Shown here in pieces: positions 25,147 through 36,522 of a DNA stretch of 37,007 bases. The stretch is from positions 9,712 to 46,718 of the forward strand of contig JAJXTI010000003.1 of NCBI GenBank assembly GCA_021783915.1. Reading direction: 5' to 3'. The position numbers were made by a program, and so were the translations under genes. The notes beneath the pieces are model-generated. The model saw only the letters and a program-made list of their open reading frames with translations. It did not search any database and had not been told where the DNA came from. How positions within the stretch are numbered: position 1 is the stretch's first letter; every line of letters begins with the position of its first letter. This DNA is from a bacterium. Lineage in GTDB: Bacteria > Omnitrophota > Gorgyraeia > Zapsychrales > Fredricksoniimonadaceae.

Positions 25147-25174
25147 TTGACAAATTAAAAATTTGTGGTAAATT
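25147..25174 (+). promoter_or_regulatory. Promoter of the hsp20-clpB unit
   Basis: Perfect -35 TTGACA (25147-25152), 16-nt spacer, TAAATT (25169-25174). The -10 box runs into the first CIRCE operator, so HrcA binding would exclude RNA polymerase. Confidence 0.65.
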
Positions 25175-25199
25175 ATCACTCAGATTTAAAGAGTGCTAA
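25173..25199 (+). promoter_or_regulatory. CIRCE operator 1 (HrcA site)
   Basis: TTATCACTC, nine bases, GAGTGCTAA: one mismatch in 18 from the CIRCE consensus (TTAGCACTC-N9-GAGTGCTAA). It overlaps the -10 and transcription start region of the hsp20 promoter. Confidence 0.9.
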
Positions 25200-25270: not shown

Positions 25271-25318
25271 GGCATGGGTATTAGCACTCTAGTTATTAGA
25301 GTGATAATTATTTCTTAA
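25244..25318 (+). CDS. Possible 24-aa hydrophobic leader peptide
   Basis: ATG after a GGTGAGG (25235-25241), reading MIRRNPHFFGMGISTLVIRV plus four residues before TAA: a basic start and a hydrophobic end. It overlaps both the leader terminator and CIRCE 2, so ribosomes on it could affect the hairpin. There is no homology evidence, and chance cannot be excluded. Confidence 0.2.
   Translation: MIRRNPHFFGMGISTLVIRVIIIS
25281..25307 (-). promoter_or_regulatory. CIRCE operator 2 (mirror-oriented)
   Basis: TTAGCACTC, nine bases, GAGTGATAA. Read on the minus strand, its arms are identical to those of CIRCE 1, including the single off-consensus base, while the spacer differs. It lies 81 nt after CIRCE 1 and 40 nt before the hsp20 start. 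Confidence 0.85.
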
Positions 25319-25806: not shown

Positions 25807-25835
25807 AGTAGGGGCGATTTATCATCGCCCCTACT
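25807..25835. repeat. Perfect palindrome between hsp20 and clpB (dispersed-repeat-like)
   Basis: Arms AGTAGGGGCGAT and ATCGCCCCTACT, 12 bp perfect, with a 5-nt loop. There is no T-run. The sequence resembles GTAGGGGCGA-type intergenic palindromes common in many bacteria. It could be a REP-like element, an RNA-processing hairpin or a partial terminator reducing clpB expression relative to hsp20. Confidence 0.6.
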
Positions 25836-25852: not shown

Positions 25853-27976
25853 ATGCAATCGCAAGAGCAGAACATACAAAAACCTTTAGAAAAATTCGGT
25901 AAAGATTTAACAGATTTGGCCAGTAAAGGTAAGCTTGACCCCGTTATCGGGCGCGACGAAGAAATTCGCCGTGTTATTCAAGTGCTATCGCGCCGGACCA
26001 AGAATAATCCTGTTTTAATCGGCGAGCCGGGGGTTGGCAAAACGGCGATAGTCGAAGGTCTGGCGCAGCGGATTTTTTTAGGAGACGTTCCTGAAGGCCT
26101 TAAACACAAAAGGGTCGTTGTTTTGGACATGGGAGCTTTGGTGGCCGGAGCAAAATTCAGGGGAGAATTTGAGGATCGGCTTAAAAGTGTTTTAAAAGAG
26201 GTGGAGTCTAATGATGGAGCCATTATTTTATTCATTGATGAGCTACACACTATTGTCGGCGCAGGGCGGGCAGAGGGAAGTGTAGACGCCGCTAATTTAC
26301 TTAAACCCGCCCTAAGCCGTGGGATGTTGCGTTGCATTGGCGCAACCACATTGGATGAATACCGTCTGTATATTGAAAAAGATGCGGCCTTAGAAAGACG
26401 GTTTCAGCAGGTCATGGTCAATGAACCGACGGTGGAAGACACCATTGCCATTTTACGTGGCCTTAAGGAAAAATATGAGGTGCATCACGGCGTACGTATT
26501 CAAGACTCCGCAATTATTGCCGCGGCGGTAATGAGCCAGAGGTATATTACAGATCGTTTCTTACCGGACAAGGCCATTGACTTAATTGATGAGGCGGCTT
26601 CCCGATTGCGTATTGAAATCGATAGCATGCCTCAAGAGTTGGATCACAATGAACGAGAAATCCGCCGGCTTGAAATAGAACGACAGGCCCTTAAGAAGGA
26701 ACAGGATGTCTCCTCTAAAGAGCGTGTCAAGACAATCGAAGAAGAATTAGCAATTTTAAAGGAAGAAAATAAAAAGATGCGCATACGCTGGCAAAATGAA
26801 AAGGTGGTTATTGACCGGATCCGTACCATTAAAGCGGATATTGAAGAACGTAAAATTGAAGAGGCCAAGGCTGAGAAAGTGGGGGATTTGGATAAAGTCG
26901 CTCAAATCCGCTACGGTGTTCTGGTCCAGTTACAAAGGGAATTGGAAGTTAATAATAAAGAACTCTCCAAAGTACAAAAAAATGGAGCCATGCTTAAAGA
27001 GGAGATTGATGACCAGGACATTGCGGAAATTATTTCTAAGTGGACAAAAATTCCCTTGTCAAAATTGATGCAAGCAGAGACAGAAAAATTAGTATATATG
27101 GAAGAAGCCTTAAAGAAAAAGGTCGTTGGTCAGGACAAAGCCATTGAAGCGATTGCTTCTTGCATTCGCCGCTCTCGCACAGGTTTAAGCGACCCGCAGA
27201 GGCCCTTGGGTTCATTTATTTTTGTGGGGCCCACAGGGGTCGGTAAAACCGAGTTGGCCAAGGCCTTGGCTTGGTTTTTATTTGATGATGAAAGTGCCAT
27301 AGTACGTATTGATATGAGCGAATATATGGAAAAACACAGCACCTCGCGTCTTATTGGTGCCCCACCGGGTTATGTCGGTTATGATGAAGGAGGCCAGTTG
27401 ACCGAGGTGGTACGCCGTAAACCTTATGCGGTGGTACTTTTTGATGAAATAGAAAAAGCCCATCCGGATGTTTTTAACGTACTTTTACAACTGCTTGACG
27501 ACGGACACCTGACCGATTCCCAAGGCAGGGTCATTAATTTTAAGAATACAATTGTGATTATGACTTCCAATATTGGGACGGAACAGATAACGGATTTGAC
27601 GGATCAGCAGAAAATAGAAGACCATGTACAAAGGGCTTTGCGGGTGCATTTCCGCCCAGAATTCTTAAACCGTGTGGATGAGATAATCGTCTTTTCACGT
27701 TTGACAGAAGCCCAGATAAAGAAAATCGTTGATATTCAGTTAGGCATCTTGGCAAGCCGTTTAAATCAGAAAGAAATAACATTGGAGGTTTCCGAGCAGG
27801 CCAAACAATTCTTGGCCAGGCAGGGTTACGATCCTGTTTATGGGGCCAGGCCTTTAAAAAGGACGATTCAAACTTTGGTTCAAGACCCTATTGCCTTTCG
27901 CCTTTTGCAAGGAGAGATCAAAGAAGGCCAGAAGATTAAGGTGGATGCTCAAGGTGAGGGTCTAGTTATTGTATAA
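25853..27976 (+). CDS. clpB: ClpB disaggregase without the N-terminal domain
   Basis: Hexameric AAA+ protein that threads aggregated proteins through its pore together with DnaK/DnaJ/GrpE. 707 aa versus ~860: it starts directly before the first AAA+ module ([20 protein letters not shown]), so the Clp_N substrate-binding domain is missing, like the short isoform of E. coli ClpB, but here apparently the only product. Walker A1 GEPGVGKT (57-64), Walker B1 FIDE (127-130), a full coiled-coil M domain (about 257-375) that identifies ClpB rather than ClpC/A, Walker A2 GPTGVGKT (459-466) and pore loop GYVGY (506-510). AAAGGA precedes the ATG. No P-loop tripeptide for ClpP was noted. Confidence 0.95.
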
Positions 27977-27999
27977 GTGATAAAATCAGGAGGTGTCTT

Positions 28000-28629
28000 A
28001 TGCAAACGACAAAACTCAATCGAATCACTACTGTTTTTTTATTGACAGCCGGGATGGTTGTATTGATTCATGCCACTGCCAGGGCCAATGAAACACAGGA
28101 CTTGAAGAATCAGGTTCAGGCCCTACAGCAGAAGGTGGATCAATTGGAAAAACAACTGGCCAACCGGTCTTCGTCACAAGTTAATGCACAGCTTCCCAAT
28201 GCAGGATCTTTTTATGATCAGTGGGATCCCTTTGCCCAGATGCAAATGATGGAACACCAAATGGGGCATATGATGAAGGAGAACGCGGTGGATTTTAACC
28301 CGCGTGAGGACATCAAACAGATGCCCCATGCTTATATTGTCAGCATGGACATCCCCGGGATGCAAAAAGACAAAATTAACCTGGAAGTCAAAAATGGGGT
28401 ACTTGTTGTCTCTGGCCAGCGTGAGAGCGAAGTCAAAGAGCAAAGGCCAAATCAATACTATCGTCAGGAACGTTATTTTGGTAATTTTTTAAGGACCGTA
28501 CCGCTTCCTGATGATGCTAAGACGGATAATATCAATGCCCAGTATAAGGACGGTGTTTTAACTATTACGGTTCCGCGAACTAAAGTAGGAAACAAAGGTT
28601 CAGAAGGGCAAAAAATAACAATTCGTTAA
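28000..28629 (+). CDS. Exported Hsp20-family protein (signal peptide, coiled coil, alpha-crystallin domain)
   Basis: 209 aa. Residues 1-29 form a signal peptide with an ARA cleavage end (then NETQ), followed by a short coiled coil (about 33-57, QDLKNQVQALQQKVDQLEKQ), a Met/His-rich stretch (QMQMMEHQMGHMMKE) and an alpha-crystallin domain from about 95 (PHAYIVSMDIPGM, LEVKNGVLVVSGQRE, QYYRQERYFGNFLRTVPLP, AQYKDGVLTITVPR). The conserved GVL...A-YKDGVL...VPR pattern leaves little doubt about the fold. A strong AGGAGG precedes the start, 23 nt after clpB. Small heat-shock proteins are normally cytoplasmic; this one should hold unfolding proteins in the periplasm or outer envelope (inference). Confidence 0.9.
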   Translation: MQTTKLNRITTVFLLTAGMVVLIHATARANETQDLKNQVQALQQKVDQLEKQLANRSSSQVNAQLPNAGSFYDQWDPFAQMQMMEHQMGHMMKENAVDFNPREDIKQMPHAYIVSMDIPGMQKDKINLEVKNGVLVVSGQRESEVKEQRPNQYYRQERYFGNFLRTVPLPDDAKTDNINAQYKDGVLTITVPRTKVGNKGSEGQKITIR

Positions 28630-28630
28630 A

Positions 28631-28918
28631 AGTAGAAATATTTTTATTTTGACGAAAGGTATTGTTCCAAGCTAGATTGGTGACTGTGTATCGGTATTCA
28701 CTGCCGGTATACCGATACTTTTATGTTCCTGTGGGGCCATTTCTATGGCTATATCTTTGATCCAAAATGGATCCAGTCAGGGATCCACTTTAGCTTTGCT
28801 TGATCCTATTATGGCGGGCTCCCATCCATTAGCGGCCTTTATGATGGTTATTCTTGTTGGTATCTTTATTGATCATGTTTATGAAGACCTGGAATTGATG
28901 TACCCTTTGGTCAGATGA
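28631..28918 (+). pseudogene. Remnant of a CSCG-type permease (ArsP_1/DUF318, YraQ-like)
   Basis: One frame of this gap reads as a piece of a predicted membrane permease: AGIPILLCSCGAISMAISL, then IQNGSSQGSTLALL, ending EDLELMYPLVR and TGA. The family hallmark is a Cys-containing helix followed by K-G-S-GA-L-FL. Here it is preceded by an in-frame TAG (28673-28675), lacks a start and ribosome site, and covers fewer than 100 codons of a ~300-residue family. A 10-bp terminator stem (28688-28718) falls within it. Judged a decayed fragment; which member of the family it came from is unclear. Confidence 0.5.
28688..28722 (+). terminator. Terminator-like hairpin after the exported hsp20
   Basis: Perfect 10-bp stem GTATCGGTAT/ATACCGATAC (28688-28697, 28709-28718), 11-nt loop, then TTTT. 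It would end the hsp20-clpB-hsp20 transcript before the hrcA promoter. It lies in the sequence that also encodes the permease remnant. Confidence 0.55.
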
Positions 28919-29020
28919 GCCGTTGTCATCAATAAGAGTCACATCACAAACCGTAAGCCTGATGATTTGCCGTTGTTTTTCTGGAACATTGAATATTTGA
29001 CTTCTGAAACAAAAGAAGGA

Positions 29021-29048
29021 TTGACAAAAAAATAGGACATGTTATACT
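29021..29048 (+). promoter_or_regulatory. Promoter of the hrcA-grpE-dnaK-dnaJ operon
   Basis: TTGACA (29021-29026), 16-nt spacer, TATACT (29043-29048), immediately followed by a CIRCE element. The rest of 28919-29020 is noncoding-looking, although one frame stays open; nothing recognisable is in it. Confidence 0.75.
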
Positions 29049-29075
29049 TTAGCAGTCGTATATTTAGAGTGCTAA
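29049..29075 (+). promoter_or_regulatory. CIRCE operator 3 (HrcA site)
   Basis: TTAGCAGTC, nine bases, GAGTGCTAA: one mismatch from consensus. It starts at the base after the -10 box, as expected for HrcA autoregulation. Confidence 0.92.
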
Positions 29076-29123: not shown

Positions 29124-29849
29124 ATGGTTAAACAAACTGATTTACAACAACGTAAAGATTTAATTTTAGCCATAGTGGTCAATCAATACATCAAGACCAT
29201 TACTCCGATAGGTTCGCATTTTATCACTGAGGAATTTAGGCTGGATGTGTCACCGGCCACTGTGCGCAATATTTTAGCGGAACTAGAAGAGGAAGGTTAT
29301 TTGAGTCATCCGCATACCTCTGCTGGGCGCGTCCCTACCCAGCGTGGGTATCGCTATTATGTCGATCATCTGATGAATGAAATCCAGCTTTTAGAAGAAG
29401 AGAAGCGCCGCATTCAATTGGAATATAAAAGGCACGTGGATCAGTTAGAGATTTTGATGGAGAAAACCACTGAGGTGATCTCTGATTTGACTCATTATAC
29501 GAGTATTATTTCAGTGGATGGCTGGGACAGTAAAATTATTCTCAAAGGGACCAGCCATGTGGTCGGCTATCCTGAAAATACGAATATATTAAAAATACAG
29601 GCAATCTTAAGAATTCTCGAGGAGAAGGAGCGTTTGTTGGCCTTAATCAACCGTGACTTGAATCATAAAATCGAAATTTATATCGGTCATGAAATGGCAT
29701 TGAAAGAAATAGAAGGTTGCTCCTTGGCCGTGTCTAGTTTTGAAAAGGGTAGCTTAACCGGACGCATTGCGGTTTTGGGGCCAACACGCATGAATTACAA
29801 CCGTGTGGTCTCTGCCCTTGAGTATATCTCGGATTTATTTAGCCATTGA
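29124..29849 (+). CDS. hrcA: Heat-inducible transcription repressor HrcA, short form
   Basis: Repressor that binds CIRCE and is kept active by GroE chaperonins in studied bacteria. 241 aa, about 100 fewer than usual. The winged-helix domain (RKDLILAIVVNQYIKTITPIGSHF, DVSPATVRNILAELEEEGYLSHPHTSAGRVPT-type segment, GYRYYVDHLM) is complete. After DLTHYTSIIS the protein jumps almost directly to ILKGTSHVVGYPENTNI...LRILEEKERLLALI, GHEMALKEIEGCSLAVSSFE and a final GPTRMNYNRVVSALEYIS, so most of the central inserted dimerisation domain is gone while both ends are well conserved. The three CIRCE sites in the window are its obvious targets. Confidence 0.95.
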   Translation: MVKQTDLQQRKDLILAIVVNQYIKTITPIGSHFITEEFRLDVSPATVRNILAELEEEGYLSHPHTSAGRVPTQRGYRYYVDHLMNEIQLLEEEKRRIQLEYKRHVDQLEILMEKTTEVISDLTHYTSIISVDGWDSKIILKGTSHVVGYPENTNILKIQAILRILEEKERLLALINRDLNHKIEIYIGHEMALKEIEGCSLAVSSFEKGSLTGRIAVLGPTRMNYNRVVSALEYISDLFSH

Positions 29850-29872: not shown

Positions 29873-30433
29873 ATGGACGAAAACGTTCAACAGCCTACAG
29901 AAGAAGTTTTGTCGCCTCAAGAAAACCAGCCTCAATTTTCACCGAGAATCGAGCAGGAGGTGCCACAGAAAGTTGATGTTTTTGACGGATTAAAAGGGCA
30001 GTTGGCGGCTGAAAAAGAAAAATATGTACGGCTTTTGGCCGAGTTTGACAATATGCGAAAGCGTCACCAGCGCGAGCGCGAAGATTTAATCAAGTATGCG
30101 CATGAAGAAGTCATCATTGAGTGCCTGAAACTTTATGATAACTTGGAACGTTCTTTGAATGCATTTAAAACCAAAGAAGGGGTAGATACAAATTTGGTCA
30201 AAGGCCTTGAGATGGTTTTTAACAACATGAAAGAGCTCATGAACAGGTACGACGTCAAATCCATTGAATCTGTCGGTAAACCGTTTGATCCCAATGCCCA
30301 AGAGGTCTTGATGCAGCAGGAAACAAAGGATTTTCTTGATGGGGTTGTGATGGAAGAATTTGAAAAAGGTTATACCTTAGGAGGACGGGTAGTACGTACG
30401 GCTAAGGTAAAGGTGGCAAAGAATAATACGTAA
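29873..30433 (+). CDS. grpE: Nucleotide exchange factor GrpE
   Basis: Dimeric cochaperone that releases ADP from DnaK. 186 aa, normal length. An acidic, disordered N-terminus leads to the long helix ([35 protein letters not shown]) and the four-helix/beta-wing region with [35 protein letters not shown] and the family-typical end [21 protein letters not shown]. It is 23 nt after hrcA, in the classical order hrcA-grpE-dnaK-dnaJ. Confidence 0.97.
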
Positions 30434-30467
30434 GGGCGTTGGTCCGCCCTTAAAGGAGGATACTATT

Positions 30468-32405
30468 ATGGCACGTGTTATAGGTATTGATTTAGGAACA
30501 TCGAATTCTGCGGCAGCAGCCATGGAAGGCGGCAGACCGGTGATTATCCCTTCAGCCGAAGGGGCTGGGGTTGCTTCAGGAAAAGCGTTCCCTTCATTTG
30601 TGGCTTTTACCAAGGATGGGCAATTACTCGTTGGAGAACCAGCTCGACGACAGGCGCCCATCAATTCCGAGGGCACCATCTATGCCTCCAAACGTAAAAT
30701 GGGCCTGGATTTTAAATTTAAAGTTTTTAGCAAAGAATACACGCCGCAACAAGTAGGTTCTTTTATTTTACAGAAAATCAAAAGCGACGCTGAGAAATTT
30801 TTAGGCGAGACAATAGAAGGTGCGGTCATTACCGTGCCGGCGTATTTTAATGACAATCAGCGCCAGGCAACCAAGGATGCGGGAGAAATCGCGGGTTTAA
30901 AAGTTTTGCGCATCATCAACGAACCTACGGCAGCGTGTTTGGCGTATGGTCTGGATAAAGCCGGTAAGGAACAAAAGATTATGGTGTTTGATCTCGGCGG
31001 AGGAACGCTGGACGTGACTATTTTGGAAATGGGCTGGGATGAAGCCCATAAGGCCGCTACATTTGAAGTGTTGGCTACATCAGGAGACAATCAATTAGGC
31101 GGTACCGATATGGACAATGCCTTGATTGATTATATCGTTGCTGAATTCAAAAAAGAAAGCGGCATTGATTTACGCAATGATAAAATGTCGTTCCAGCGTC
31201 TGCGTGAAGCAGCGGAGAAGGCCAAGGTGGAGCTGTCCAGCACTGTCTCCACAGAAGTTAATCTTCCTTATATCACCGCCGATGCCACGGGGCCTAAGCA
31301 TTTGAACATCAAAATTGACCGTGCTAAGCTCGAAAATTTAATTGCACCGTTGGTAGACCGTTGCCGTGGCCCGGTGCGTCAGGCTATTAAAGATGCGTCC
31401 TCTAAGCTGGGGGAGGAAGTCAAGATTGACCGTGTTGTTTTAGTCGGAGGCCCTACCCGTATGCCTGTTGTTCAGGCTTTTTTAGAAAAGGAAGTTGGTC
31501 AGAAAATCGAAGGCGGTATTGACCCCATGGAATGTGTGGCTTTAGGTGCCGCGATTCAGGCGGCCATTATTACTGGGGACGCCAAAGAAGTCCGTTTACT
31601 CGACGTTACACCTTTGTCGCTTGGCATCGAGACCATGGGAGGTGTGTTTACTAAATTGATTGATCGTAACACTACCATTCCGACAAAGAAAAGTCAGGTT
31701 TTTTCAACGGCGGAAGATAACCAACCCGCTGTGACGATCCGTGTTTTACAAGGCGAGCGCCAGATGGCTAATGATAATACGGAACTAGGCCGTTTTGACT
31801 TAGTAGGTATCCCACCGGCACCCCGTGGAGTTCCACAGGTGGAGGTGACTTTTGATATCGACACTAACGGTATCGTACATGTGGGGGCCAAAGATAAAGC
31901 GACCGGCAAAGAACAAAAAATTCAAATAACGGCCAAGACCAAATTATCTGATGACGAAATTCAGAAAATGGTCAAGGAAGCAGAGAAGTTTGCCGAAGAA
32001 GATAAAAAACGCCGTGACGAAGCTGAGCTTTTTAATCAAGGCAATGCCTTAGTGTATTCGACGGAAAAAGCGCTAAAAGATTATGGCGATAAAGCCCCCG
32101 CGTCTGATAAAGAAAACGTGGAGAAAGAATTGACGGCACTCAAGGATGCCATCAAGGATAAGAATCACGACAAAATTAAATCTTCGATGGAGTCATTGCA
32201 GAAAGTAAGCCATAAATTGGCCGAAGAAATGTATAAGGCCACATCTGCCCAAGGTCAAGCTGGTGCCGGCACTACAGGCGATGCAGGTGGACCGCAACAA
32301 CCTAATGATGCCGATGGCCAACAGCAACCATCGTCAGGGGATACGGGTACTAAGGGCAAGGATGATGTGATTGATGCGGATTTTAAGGCGACAGATAAAA
32401 AATGA
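30468..32405 (+). CDS. dnaK: Molecular chaperone DnaK (Hsp70)
   Basis: 645 aa. ATPase motifs: phosphate-1 [33 protein letters not shown], phosphate-2 [16 protein letters not shown] and the adenosine motif [11 protein letters not shown]. The substrate-binding domain begins after the linker [16 protein letters not shown] and contains [13 protein letters not shown]. The tail is Gly/Gln/Pro-rich and ends near [14 protein letters not shown], like the EEVVDADFEEV-type end of other DnaKs. The N-terminus has GTSNS instead of the common GTTNS, and a PSAEG form after the first strands that is more often seen outside Proteobacteria. A strong AAGGAGG precedes the ATG. The stop overlaps dnaJ by ATGA. Confidence 0.98.
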
Positions 32406-33535
32406 AGAAAGATTATTACGAAATTCTTGGTGTCACAAAAACGGCAAGCCTTGCGGATATAAAGAAGGCTTACCGTTCTTTGGCGCTTAAACATCATCCT
32501 GACCGCGTGGCCGTAGGTGAAAAAAAAGGAGCTGAGGAAAAGTTTAAAGAAATTTCCGAAGCCTATGGGGTTTTGTCTGACCCACAAAAACGACAAACGT
32601 ATGATCAATTTGGTCATCAGGGCATTGACCAGAATTATACGTCTGAAGATATTTTCCGCGGAGCTGATTTTTCCAGTATTTTCGAAGGGGCTGGGTTAGG
32701 AGACATTTTAGGCCGCATGTTCGGGGCAGAATTTGATGTTTTTGGCGGCGGTGGTGGCGGCCGTTCCAGCAGGCATTCACGAGGCAGAGACATTCAATAT
32801 GAAATTGAACTGCCCCTGGAAGAAGCTTTTTCAGGCGTTAAAAAAGACATTCGTGTGCCTCGTCACGAGTTTTGTAAACAGTGCAACGGCACAGGAGCTA
32901 AAAACGGGACGGCCTTAAAGACATGTCCCCAATGCCGTGGCCAGGGGCAAGTGGTGATGTCTTCCGGCTTCTTTCGCATGGCTCAAACCTGTGGGCATTG
33001 TCGCGGGACAGGAAAGGTCATTACGGAACAATGCCCTGAATGTTCCGGCCAGGGACTAAAGCGTGTGGTAAGGAACATTGAGGTCAATATTCCAGCCGGT
33101 GTAGATAATGATTCTCAGCTACGCGTGCGCGGTGAAGGTGAAATAGGCCAAGGCGGCAGCGGTGATCTTTATCTTTTTATCAGAGTCCGTGAACATGATG
33201 TTTACAAACGAGATGGCCAGGATTTGTACATGGATGTTCCTATGAGTTTTACCAAGACTGCTTTGGGAGGAGATATCCAAGTCAAGACCCTTAAGGAAAC
33301 GGTGGAGATGAAGATCCCTGCCGGTACCCAAGGTGGAAAAATGTTTAGGCTCAAGGGGCAAGGGATGCCTGGAGTACATGGCCAGACACCAGGAGACCTT
33401 TATGCACGAGCTATGATTGAAGTCCCCACCAGTTTGAATAGCCGCCAGCGAGAACTTCTGGAAGAATTTGCTAAAGAATCAGGGGAAACCACCAAGGGGT
33501 CATTTAAGGACCGGATTAAAAAAGCATTTAAGTAG
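32402..33535 (+). CDS. dnaJ: Molecular chaperone DnaJ (Hsp40, type I)
   Basis: Stimulates DnaK ATPase and delivers substrates. 377 aa. J domain 1-70 with HPD at 32-34 (LALKHHPDR). A Gly/Phe-rich region and a poly-Gly run (FGGGGGGR) follow; then four CxxCxGxG zinc-finger repeats ([32 protein letters not shown]); then the C-terminal beta-sandwich domains ([39 protein letters not shown]). The start overlaps the dnaK stop, so the two are translationally coupled. It should work with GrpE and ClpB of the same island. Confidence 0.98.
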
Positions 33536-33993: not shown

Positions 33994-36522
33994 ATGACAT
34001 TGCGGCAAATTTTTGTTATTGCGGCATTGGTTTCTTTTTCCCTGGGTAACCTGGACCCCGTACCTATGTCTTATGCTCAGGAAGCTGCTGATTTGCCTAT
34101 ACCCGGGGCCATGATTAACTTAAGCCCTGCTTTTGAACCCGTACTTATCAAAGGTTTGAAGATCCATCCTGAAAACCCTTTTGCTTTTGATTTTATTATT
34201 GATACAGGTAATACTAATTTAACTGCAAGCAATAGCAAAAAACATTTCCTTCAGGAAGAATCTATCAAGTTAATCAAATATTTCCTGGCTGCGATGACCA
34301 TACCTGAAAAAGATTTATGGGTAAATTTATCTCCTTATGAAAAAAAACATATGATAGCTTCTAATTTAGCGGAAACCAGGATGGGACGGGACATGCTGGC
34401 CCAGGACTATATTCTTAAACAATTGACGGCTTCATTGATTTACCCCGAAAAAAAACTTGGGAAAATCTTTTGGAATAAGATTTATACCAAAGCTCAGCAG
34501 TTATACGGAACGACCCAGATACCAGTCAATACATTTAACAAAGTATGGATAGTAGCGGATAGAGCAGACGTGTTTGAACAGGGTAATGTTGCTTATGTGG
34601 TAGGTGCGCATTTGAAGGTAATGTTGGAAGCAGATTACTTAGCGATGCATAAGGCAAATGTTTCCCAAGGCATCTTACGAAATCAAACGCAAAAGCAATC
34701 GGATGGAACAGAATTACCACGGGAGACTGATGTGCAGCAGATAGGTTCTCAAATGGTACGGGATCTCATCCTTCCTGAACTTGAGAAAGAAGTTAATACC
34801 GATAAAAATTTTGCCACCTTACGCCAGATGTTTTATTCCATGATCCTTGCCAGTTGGTACAAAATGGTGCTCAAAGATTCAATATTGACTCAGATTTATG
34901 CGAATCAATCAAAAGTTAAGATAGGTATTGGCCAGGACGATCCTCAAGCTAATGAAGAAATATTCGACCGATACCTAAAAGCATACAGAAAAGGGGTGTT
35001 TAATTACATCAAAGAAGATATTAATAAAGCGACAGGGCAGAATACTCCTAGAAAGTATTTTTCAGGTGGATTAGAAATTTTTCCTGGAGGAGATGCGGCA
35101 CAGGTCATCTATCGACACCAACCTTGGCGGACAGGGACGATAGTAGGAAGGGCTTTTGATGTAACGGTATTAGTGAAGGCTAAAACAGAAGCGGGTATGC
35201 AGGAAGACCACGCCATGATGAATGAGGGTGATTCAAGAGGGGATGGCGCAGGGGCTTTGTTAAGAGGTGAACGCAAAGAGGTCTACCTGGCCATTAATGA
35301 ATTGACCCAAGGAAATGCTCTTGTTGAAGTGACACGACCAGAGGTCAACGATATAGCCAGGAAATTAAAATTACCACCCAGTCGAATTATAGAGATTATG
35401 GAAAACACTTTAGGGTTATGGGGTACGGAGGCAGAGACCTGGGTGGGTTTTGATTCCAAGTTGACAGGCGGTATTCAATTCATACAAGATCTGCGCTGGG
35501 CAGAATTTCCAGGGCAGAAAGGTACACACATTGTTCCAGACCAAATTAAAGTAAGAACAGGAAATTTAGAATTTCAATTGGCATTACGCTGGCAAGGTGG
35601 ACAATTTAATCCTAGCGGTAAAGAAAACGAAGATTTGAGGTATTCCCTTACAAATCAAGATGAAGGTGTTATCTTGGGGCTGACGCGTGTAGAAAAGAAG
35701 GCCCAACAACGATGGGCATTTGATCTTACCCCTGAACAGCGTGGAGAAATGATAGATTATTTGAGAAGAAACCAACAATATGGGCGACAAGACAAGTCGA
35801 TGAACGCTCAATCATTAAGGCAGGAGGCTGCCCAAATTATCCAAATGGCTAAAACTAATTTTTTAAGCAAACCGGACGTTTTAGTCATAGGATCTGATAT
35901 TTTTTCATCAACGGCGCATATGATCGAAACGATTTATCAAAGAAAAGTTGTGCGGGTTCCTACTAATCAGGCCGCGTTAGCATTATTAAATGGTAGAGGA
36001 AAGGCCGCGGGGAAAATTGGTTTGGTTTTATCTGTCAATGCCTTTGACGAACAGGCTTTCGTTCAAAACATATATCAAAACCGTCTTTTAATACCTATTA
36101 TTATCGCACCTTCTTGGGAGGGGGATCAAGGGCCTGTTGGTGAGCTCCCTCCCAACGTATTGTTTACTCCATCAAGAGTGCTATGGAATAAAGTTGTTTC
36201 TAATATTTTAGATGGCACGATTATAGATAACAGACCTGAATTCAGATCTGCAGTAGCTGCTGTTACAACACAATTAAAACAGTTACCTTCTGTGGAGGGT
36301 TCTTCGATGGCAATGCCGGGAGGTATCGATCTTGACCGTAATAAAATGCAATTGAACACGCGCAAAGAAGAAGGTATTACAATGCACTTCGATGCCGCCA
36401 TGGTTGGGCGTATCAGGCGTGAGGGTTTTGATGGCTTGGAATTTCAAATACAATCTATTGTGCCTGTTACAGATTTGTCGCTGTTGCTCGGCACAACCCC
36501 TAAACAACACTTCAGGCATTGA
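33994..36522 (+). CDS. Large exported protein of an Omnitrophota-type family, function unknown
   Basis: 842 aa with an N-terminal signal peptide ending near MSYAQEA. The N-terminal half (about 40-380) contains a conserved block: PVLIKGLKIHPENPFAFDFI, LWVNLSPYEKKH, MGRDMLAQDYILKQLTASL, YPEKKLGKIFWNKIY, IPVNTFNKVWIV, LRQMFYSMILASWYKMVLKDS and PRKYFSGG. I know this combination from large Omnitrophota proteins. A middle part has a charged ~150-residue domain (VTRPEVNDIARKLKLPPS, LTPEQRGEMIDYLRR). A Rossmann-like part follows at about 605-760 (KPDVLVIGSDIFSS, AGKIGLVLSVNAFD). The end is PGGIDL (775-780)...FDGLEFQIQSIVPVTDL, then LLLGT, a terminal module recurrent in that family. No catalytic motif was recognised. 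Confidence 0.8.
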   Translation: MTLRQIFVIAALVSFSLGNLDPVPMSYAQEAADLPIPGAMINLSPAFEPVLIKGLKIHPENPFAFDFIIDTGNTNLTASNSKKHFLQEESIKLIKYFLAAMTIPEKDLWVNLSPYEKKHMIASNLAETRMGRDMLAQDYILKQLTASLIYPEKKLGKIFWNKIYTKAQQLYGTTQIPVNTFNKVWIVADRADVFEQGNVAYVVGAHLKVMLEADYLAMHKANVSQGILRNQTQKQSDGTELPRETDVQQIGSQMVRDLILPELEKEVNTDKNFATLRQMFYSMILASWYKMVLKDSILTQIYANQSKVKIGIGQDDPQANEEIFDRYLKAYRKGVFNYIKEDINKATGQNTPRKYFSGGLEIFPGGDAAQVIYRHQPWRTGTIVGRAFDVTVLVKAKTEAGMQEDHAMMNEGDSRGDGAGALLRGERKEVYLAINELTQGNALVEVTRPEVNDIARKLKLPPSRIIEIMENTLGLWGTEAETWVGFDSKLTGGIQFIQDLRWAEFPGQKGTHIVPDQIKVRTGNLEFQLALRWQGGQFNPSGKENEDLRYSLTNQDEGVILGLTRVEKKAQQRWAFDLTPEQRGEMIDYLRRNQQYGRQDKSMNAQSLRQEAAQIIQMAKTNFLSKPDVLVIGSDIFSSTAHMIETIYQRKVVRVPTNQAALALLNGRGKAAGKIGLVLSVNAFDEQAFVQNIYQNRLLIPIIIAPSWEGDQGPVGELPPNVLFTPSRVLWNKVVSNILDGTIIDNRPEFRSAVAAVTTQLKQLPSVEGSSMAMPGGIDLDRNKMQLNTRKEEGITMHFDAAMVGRIRREGFDGLEFQIQSIVPVTDLSLLLGTTPKQHFRH

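Follow-up and report, generated by a model that had tools for sequence, protein, structure and literature searches.

A small heat-shock protein (sHsp) with a predicted signal peptide and a coiled coil ahead of its alpha-crystallin domain is encoded by the last gene of a heat-shock unit, ordered CIRCE-CIRCE-hsp20-clpB-hsp20SP, in the genome of a diderm Candidatus Omnitrophota. This protein, here called hsp20SP, was studied within a stretch of 37,007 nucleotides (the window), and its features are listed in the table. It is proposed, with a probability of roughly three in four, that hsp20SP is an exported, ATP-independent periplasmic holdase that is co-induced through HrcA with the cytoplasmic disaggregase system, and that holds envelope clients for refolding or for HtrA. 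The export and the co-regulation are supported by the sequence, from which we infer the location, the cleavage, the holdase activity, the hand-over of clients, and the binding and control by HrcA in the living cell.

The predicted exported Hsp20 and its heat-shock unit

The ATG at 28000 is a credible start codon, given the strong ribosome site AGGAGGTG in front of it; another in-frame ATG is found at residue 19. The putative signal peptide, MQTTKLNRITTVFLLTAGMVVLIHATARA, followed by NE, combines K5 and R8 in the n-region with a hydrophobic core free of charges and the residues A27-R28-A29. These n, h and c regions with AxA are those of Sec-exported substrates of signal peptidase I, as judged by a simple rule devised for this analysis (not SignalP), with composition-preserving shuffles and 13 ordinary Hsp20s from the same loci as controls. 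The host genome encodes signal peptidase I (PF10502, E=1.5e-53) as well as BamA/Omp85 (E=2.7e-71), so that an exported protein would have both a processing enzyme and a periplasm to enter. Further along the protein, the heptad pattern at residues 33–53, QDLKNQVQALQQKVDQLEKQL, was matched in quality by 0/200 shuffles, and the segment MQMMEHQMGHMM, around residues 80–93, is rich in Met and His.

The only Pfam matches of hsp20SP are HSP20, ArsA_HSP20 and a sub-threshold FKBP26_C; PF00011 (HSP20) covers residues 104–208 with E=1.6e-24, and the I-x-I tail of the Hsp20 family is present as I-T-I at 206–208. An AlphaFold model built with 14 sequences (mean pLDDT 74.7, about 90 across much of the domain) consists of one long N-terminal helix (4–56) and a beta sandwich. 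The fold search with this model retrieved solved sHsps, among them 3gla and, as the best match, wheat Hsp16.9 (1gme), which was also the top match in the sequence search. An alpha-crystallin domain behind a signal peptide and a short coiled coil, as an earlier sequence-only reading had described it, was thus confirmed. Only two Hsp20s were found in the host genome, which is ~89% complete, i.e., hsp20SP and the product of the leading gene of its unit (25348).

Table. Features of the window and of related loci, with the evidence for each
Feature	Position	Strand	Basis
Sigma-70-like promoter TTGACA-16-TAAATT, overlapping the first CIRCE	25147..25174	+	consensus match only
CIRCE element 1	25173..25199	+	1 mismatch of 18; 0 expected by chance
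CIRCE element 2	25281..25307	+	1 mismatch of 18; 0 expected by chance
hsp20, ordinary cytoplasmic type without signal peptide, 148 aa	25348..25794	+	PF00011 E=1.4e-28; fails signal-peptide rule
clpB without N-terminal domain, 707 aa	25853..27976	+	match to TIGR03346 begins only at model position 151
Ribosome-binding site AGGAGGTG of the exported Hsp20	27988..27995	+	precedes ATG 28000
hsp20SP, predicted exported small heat-shock protein, 209 aa	28000..28629	+	open reading frame and translation, Pfam, signal-peptide rule
Signal peptide, residues 1–29, predicted cleavage ARA/NE	28000..28086	+	sequence and own rule
Coiled coil, residues 33–53, perfect heptads	28096..28158	+	heptad scoring against shuffles
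DPFAQM helix, residues 77–95	28228..28284	+	alignment and structure model
Alpha-crystallin domain and C-terminal I-T-I motif, residues 104–208	28309..28623	+	Pfam, model, fold search
Terminator-like hairpin closing the unit	28686..28712	+	pattern match only
CIRCE element 3, upstream of hrcA	29049..29075	+	motif scan; 0 expected by chance
hrcA, repressor binding CIRCE, 241 aa	29124..29849	+	TIGR00331 E=9.5e-68, above cut-off
grpE, dnaK, dnaJ	29873..33535	+	assigned from the sequence; related loci have recognisable homologues next to hrcA
HtrA-alpha-crystallin fusions L248–L255	for example L030:1498-2769 and L105:382-1656	-	domain matches

The gap between clpB and hsp20SP is 23 nt long and contains no promoter- or terminator-like site, and the two CIRCE elements head the unit; the placement of the gene directly after clpB in a unit headed by CIRCE, previously noticed from the letters of the DNA, is confirmed. 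As in HrcA/CIRCE regulons, CIRCE is located at the promoter of the unit and HrcA is encoded in the genome, where only two CIRCE elements were found besides the three of the window, both of them beside a groES-type gene.

Several other aspects of the window were noted. A perfect hairpin without a T run, AGTAGGGGCGA...TCGCCCCTACT, is located at 25807–25835, between hsp20 and clpB, and could tune the transcript levels of clpB and hsp20SP. ClpB is full-length in relatives L034 and L045 but lacks the N-terminal domain in the window (25853–27976). The window HrcA (29124–29849) is about 100 residues below the usual 340, and the same length is found in close relatives. In relatives a neighbour gene is present, of which a search of the gap 28630–29049 revealed no remnant. 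Shortly 3' of the dnaJ unit, an 842-residue protein with a signal peptide is encoded at 33994–36522.

Conservation in relatives and surveys beyond the phylum

The signal peptide was followed in 21 sequences, made up of the window protein plus 20 orthologues, all from its own family and order and 23–53% identical to it. A charged and hydrophobic N-terminus was present in 18 of the 21, versus 1.9% of the shuffles, and it was accompanied by a cleavage site in 16, versus 0.9%; the rule was satisfied by none of the 13 ordinary Hsp20s from the same loci. At least one of the three sequences that fail the charged and hydrophobic rule does so as an artefact of the chosen start codon. The signal peptide is thus kept in orthologues down to 23% identity, a point on which the sequence-only reading had made its proposal depend. 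In 20/21 sequences the heptad pattern scored better than all or nearly all shuffles. The Met/His richness of the window protein is only partly kept in relatives, and the I-x-I motif is missing from the HtrA-linked subgroup. The alignment of all 21 rows diverged too much to be used in the scan of genome contigs, and one of 10 rows took its place; the genomes compared are mostly metagenome-assembled.

CIRCE was found upstream in 22 of the 36 related loci examined, which were chosen for having the gene and not at random, while the reversed motif, used as a control, gave 0 matches in related loci. The gene orders include CIRCE-hsp20-clpB-hsp20SP, CIRCE-hsp20-hsp20SP-clpB, CIRCE-hsp20-hsp20SP-hrcA and CIRCE-hsp20-hsp20-hsp20SP, and in locus L038 the exported gene directly follows a CIRCE at a distance of 59 nt. 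The order of the genes varies, and membership of a CIRCE unit is conserved, which lends sequence support to the earlier suggestion that HrcA may co-ordinate cytoplasmic and envelope proteostasis. In L040, L044, L048 and L104, the exported-type gene is found near a two-component pair instead. In L256 and L257, a signal peptide, a further domain of ~100 residues and an alpha-crystallin domain form one product encoded after CIRCE-hsp20-clpB.

Outside the phylum, no Hsp20 with a true signal peptide was found among the best-scoring proteins from 399 Pseudomonadota-centre and 199 Acidobacteriota-centre genomes, nor among the chosen longest frames; this survey covers best matches only, so that rare cases could be missed. 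Two signal-peptide Hsp20s flagged in it proved to be spurious upstream extensions. Of 1856 plasmid Hsp20 records, none aligned over 80% of the query, the listed matches spanning the alpha-crystallin domain alone, and no relative was found in the viral contigs searched. The claim that such a protein is unusual stands for bacteria at large but not within Omnitrophota, where membrane-inserted or exported Hsp20s are common and not unique. In the open literature, to which the search was confined, no periplasmic bacterial sHsp described as such was found, nor anything relevant on an HtrA with an Hsp20 domain; neither of two surveys of the sHsp family mentions a signal peptide or the periplasm. The closest that this literature comes to secretion is a predicted Geobacillus secretome that includes one Hsp20 (PMC6171300).

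Fusion and adjacency to HtrA

Matches of the profile with long open frames brought to light another arrangement. In eight Omnitrophota genomes, a signal-peptide-bearing HtrA protease, matched by the protease half of TIGR02037, has a C-terminal alpha-crystallin domain in the position where DegP has PDZ; in L030, for example, the matches are Trypsin_2 (E=8e-34) and HSP20 (E=4e-13). CIRCE also precedes one such fusion in a relative. In four further loci the exported Hsp20 adjoins a separate htrA gene, with a spacing of 18 nt in L261, an overlap in L052 and about 200 nt in L040 and L047; L052 has the full set CIRCE-hsp20-hsp20-hsp20SP-htrA. The fusion and adjacency give independent support for an envelope role. 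The repeated linkage points to HtrA as the partner of the exported Hsp20, and owing to the fusion, the finding as a whole is of greater interest than the hsp20SP gene alone. The fusion is absent from the window's own genome, where the single trypsin-like match lies on another contig. In the Auribacterota search group, a membrane segment, a PDZ domain, a zinc-ribbon-like stretch and an alpha-crystallin domain are combined in one protein (L219:1492-2658, minus strand).

A tree of the domain (116 sequences, in an alignment of only 107 columns) groups the HtrA fusions with 15 exported Hsp20s with a support of 100, and separates the exported from the cytoplasmic types with 3 changes over the 116 sequences; a single exported clade was not rejected (AU p=0.39).

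Alternative readings and the place of hsp20SP among known systems

It is known that some sHsps stabilise membranes, and an uncleaved membrane anchor is seen in L044 and in many relatives elsewhere in the phylum; in many relatives of other families, and in one Auribacterota protein, the hydrophobic segment has no AxA, and some of these segments are flanked by positive residues on both sides. These anchored relatives may face either side of the membrane. An automatic sorting of the relatives into cleaved and anchored forms proved unreliable, and for this reason no totals are given for them. If the N-terminus of hsp20SP were also an anchor, the protein would be a membrane-tethered Hsp20, with its domain periplasmic or possibly facing the cytoplasm, that guards the inner membrane. 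We consider this unlikely, since in the window protein and its closest relatives the hydrophobic stretch ends in AxA followed by acidic or polar residues, and since the HtrA fusions put the same domain with an exported protease.

The Met/His-rich segment of the window protein would also suit an exported protein with a different function, for instance in envelope structure or metal binding. Such a role seems very improbable, given that the Hsp20 core and the I-x-I tail are kept, that the gene stays in heat-shock units and is linked to HtrA, and that relatives retain this richness only in part. To our knowledge, nearly all bacteria studied keep their Hsp20s in the cytoplasm, and translation from the ATG at residue 19 or another downstream start would yield a cytoplasmic Hsp20 of the ordinary kind whose N-terminus is a coiled coil. 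Nevertheless, the ribosome site is correctly placed before ATG 28000 and the export signal is kept across distant orthologues; a downstream start, including one beyond residue 29 as the sequence-only reading had envisaged, was rejected on these grounds and, being largely refuted by conservation, retains hardly any probability.

With the Hsp20/alpha-crystallin sHsps (PF00011, with 1gme as the nearest solved structure) hsp20SP has in common the alpha-crystallin domain, the C-terminal I-x-I and an N-terminal helix before the domain; however, it has a signal peptide and a coiled coil instead of the usual short N-terminal arm, and it is predicted to be periplasmic. It belongs to this family, in which its predicted location and its architecture are new. 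The sHsps of organelles (plant ER, chloroplast and mitochondrial, and human intermembrane space) are likewise alpha-crystallin proteins outside the main cytosol, but they are eukaryotic and use other targeting routes. The mitochondrial intermembrane space, in which human sHsps occur (PMC10014586), is a compartment comparable to the periplasm, and according to sHSPdb (PMC4906601), the targeting of sHsps to organelles has so far been specific to plants, albeit with some exceptions.

Envelope quality control is shared with HtrA/DegP (TIGR02037), whose protease domain is fused or adjacent to Hsp20s of this type in relatives; no trypsin-like catalytic domain was found by Pfam in the window protein, in contrast with the fused proteins. 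Spy, Skp and SurA are ATP-independent periplasmic chaperones, but they belong to unrelated families and their own Pfam domains were not found in hsp20SP. As in known HrcA/CIRCE regulons, CIRCE precedes chaperone genes in the host, with hrcA-grpE-dnaK-dnaJ and groES among them; the difference is that an exported chaperone is included here and, in a relative, an HtrA-Hsp20 fusion.

In the mechanism that we propose, HrcA bound to CIRCE would repress hsp20SP along with its unit partners, the cytoplasmic hsp20 and clpB, and would likewise repress hrcA-grpE-dnaK-dnaJ and groESL, which belong to other units. Heat or another stress would inactivate HrcA and the hsp20-clpB-hsp20SP unit would be transcribed; Hsp20 and ClpB would work in the cytoplasm, while the third product would be carried across the inner membrane by the Sec pathway and cut by signal peptidase I after residue 29. 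The N-terminal coiled coil and the alpha-crystallin domain would then assemble hsp20SP into a holdase that, being ATP-free, suits the periplasm, and that would keep heat-damaged envelope proteins soluble until their refolding or their degradation by HtrA-type proteases. Neither ClpB nor DnaK can work in the periplasm, so that the clients there must refold unaided or be degraded. Under HrcA/CIRCE control of these units, one cytoplasmic sensor would raise the chaperones on both sides of the membrane.

The prevailing view is that bacterial periplasms handle misfolded proteins by means of Spy, Skp, SurA and DegP, without sHsps. A wider proposal, which in our judgement could go either way, is that an envelope branch of the sHsps evolved in Omnitrophota and Auribacterota, composed of exported Hsp20s, membrane-anchored Hsp20s and HtrAs in which an alpha-crystallin domain replaces PDZ, often under the cytoplasmic HrcA/CIRCE sensor, so that periplasmic holding and degrading would form one physically coupled system timed by HrcA. 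An exported Hsp20 that is conserved, tied to HtrA through gene order and fusion and included in the HrcA regulon would imply that alpha-crystallin chaperones serve bacterial envelopes too, that HrcA can co-ordinate the two compartments with no need for a dedicated sensor of envelope stress, and that a chaperone and a protease can be joined in one polypeptide; as a system, it is directly testable and has its parallel in the sHsps found in the mitochondrial intermembrane space.
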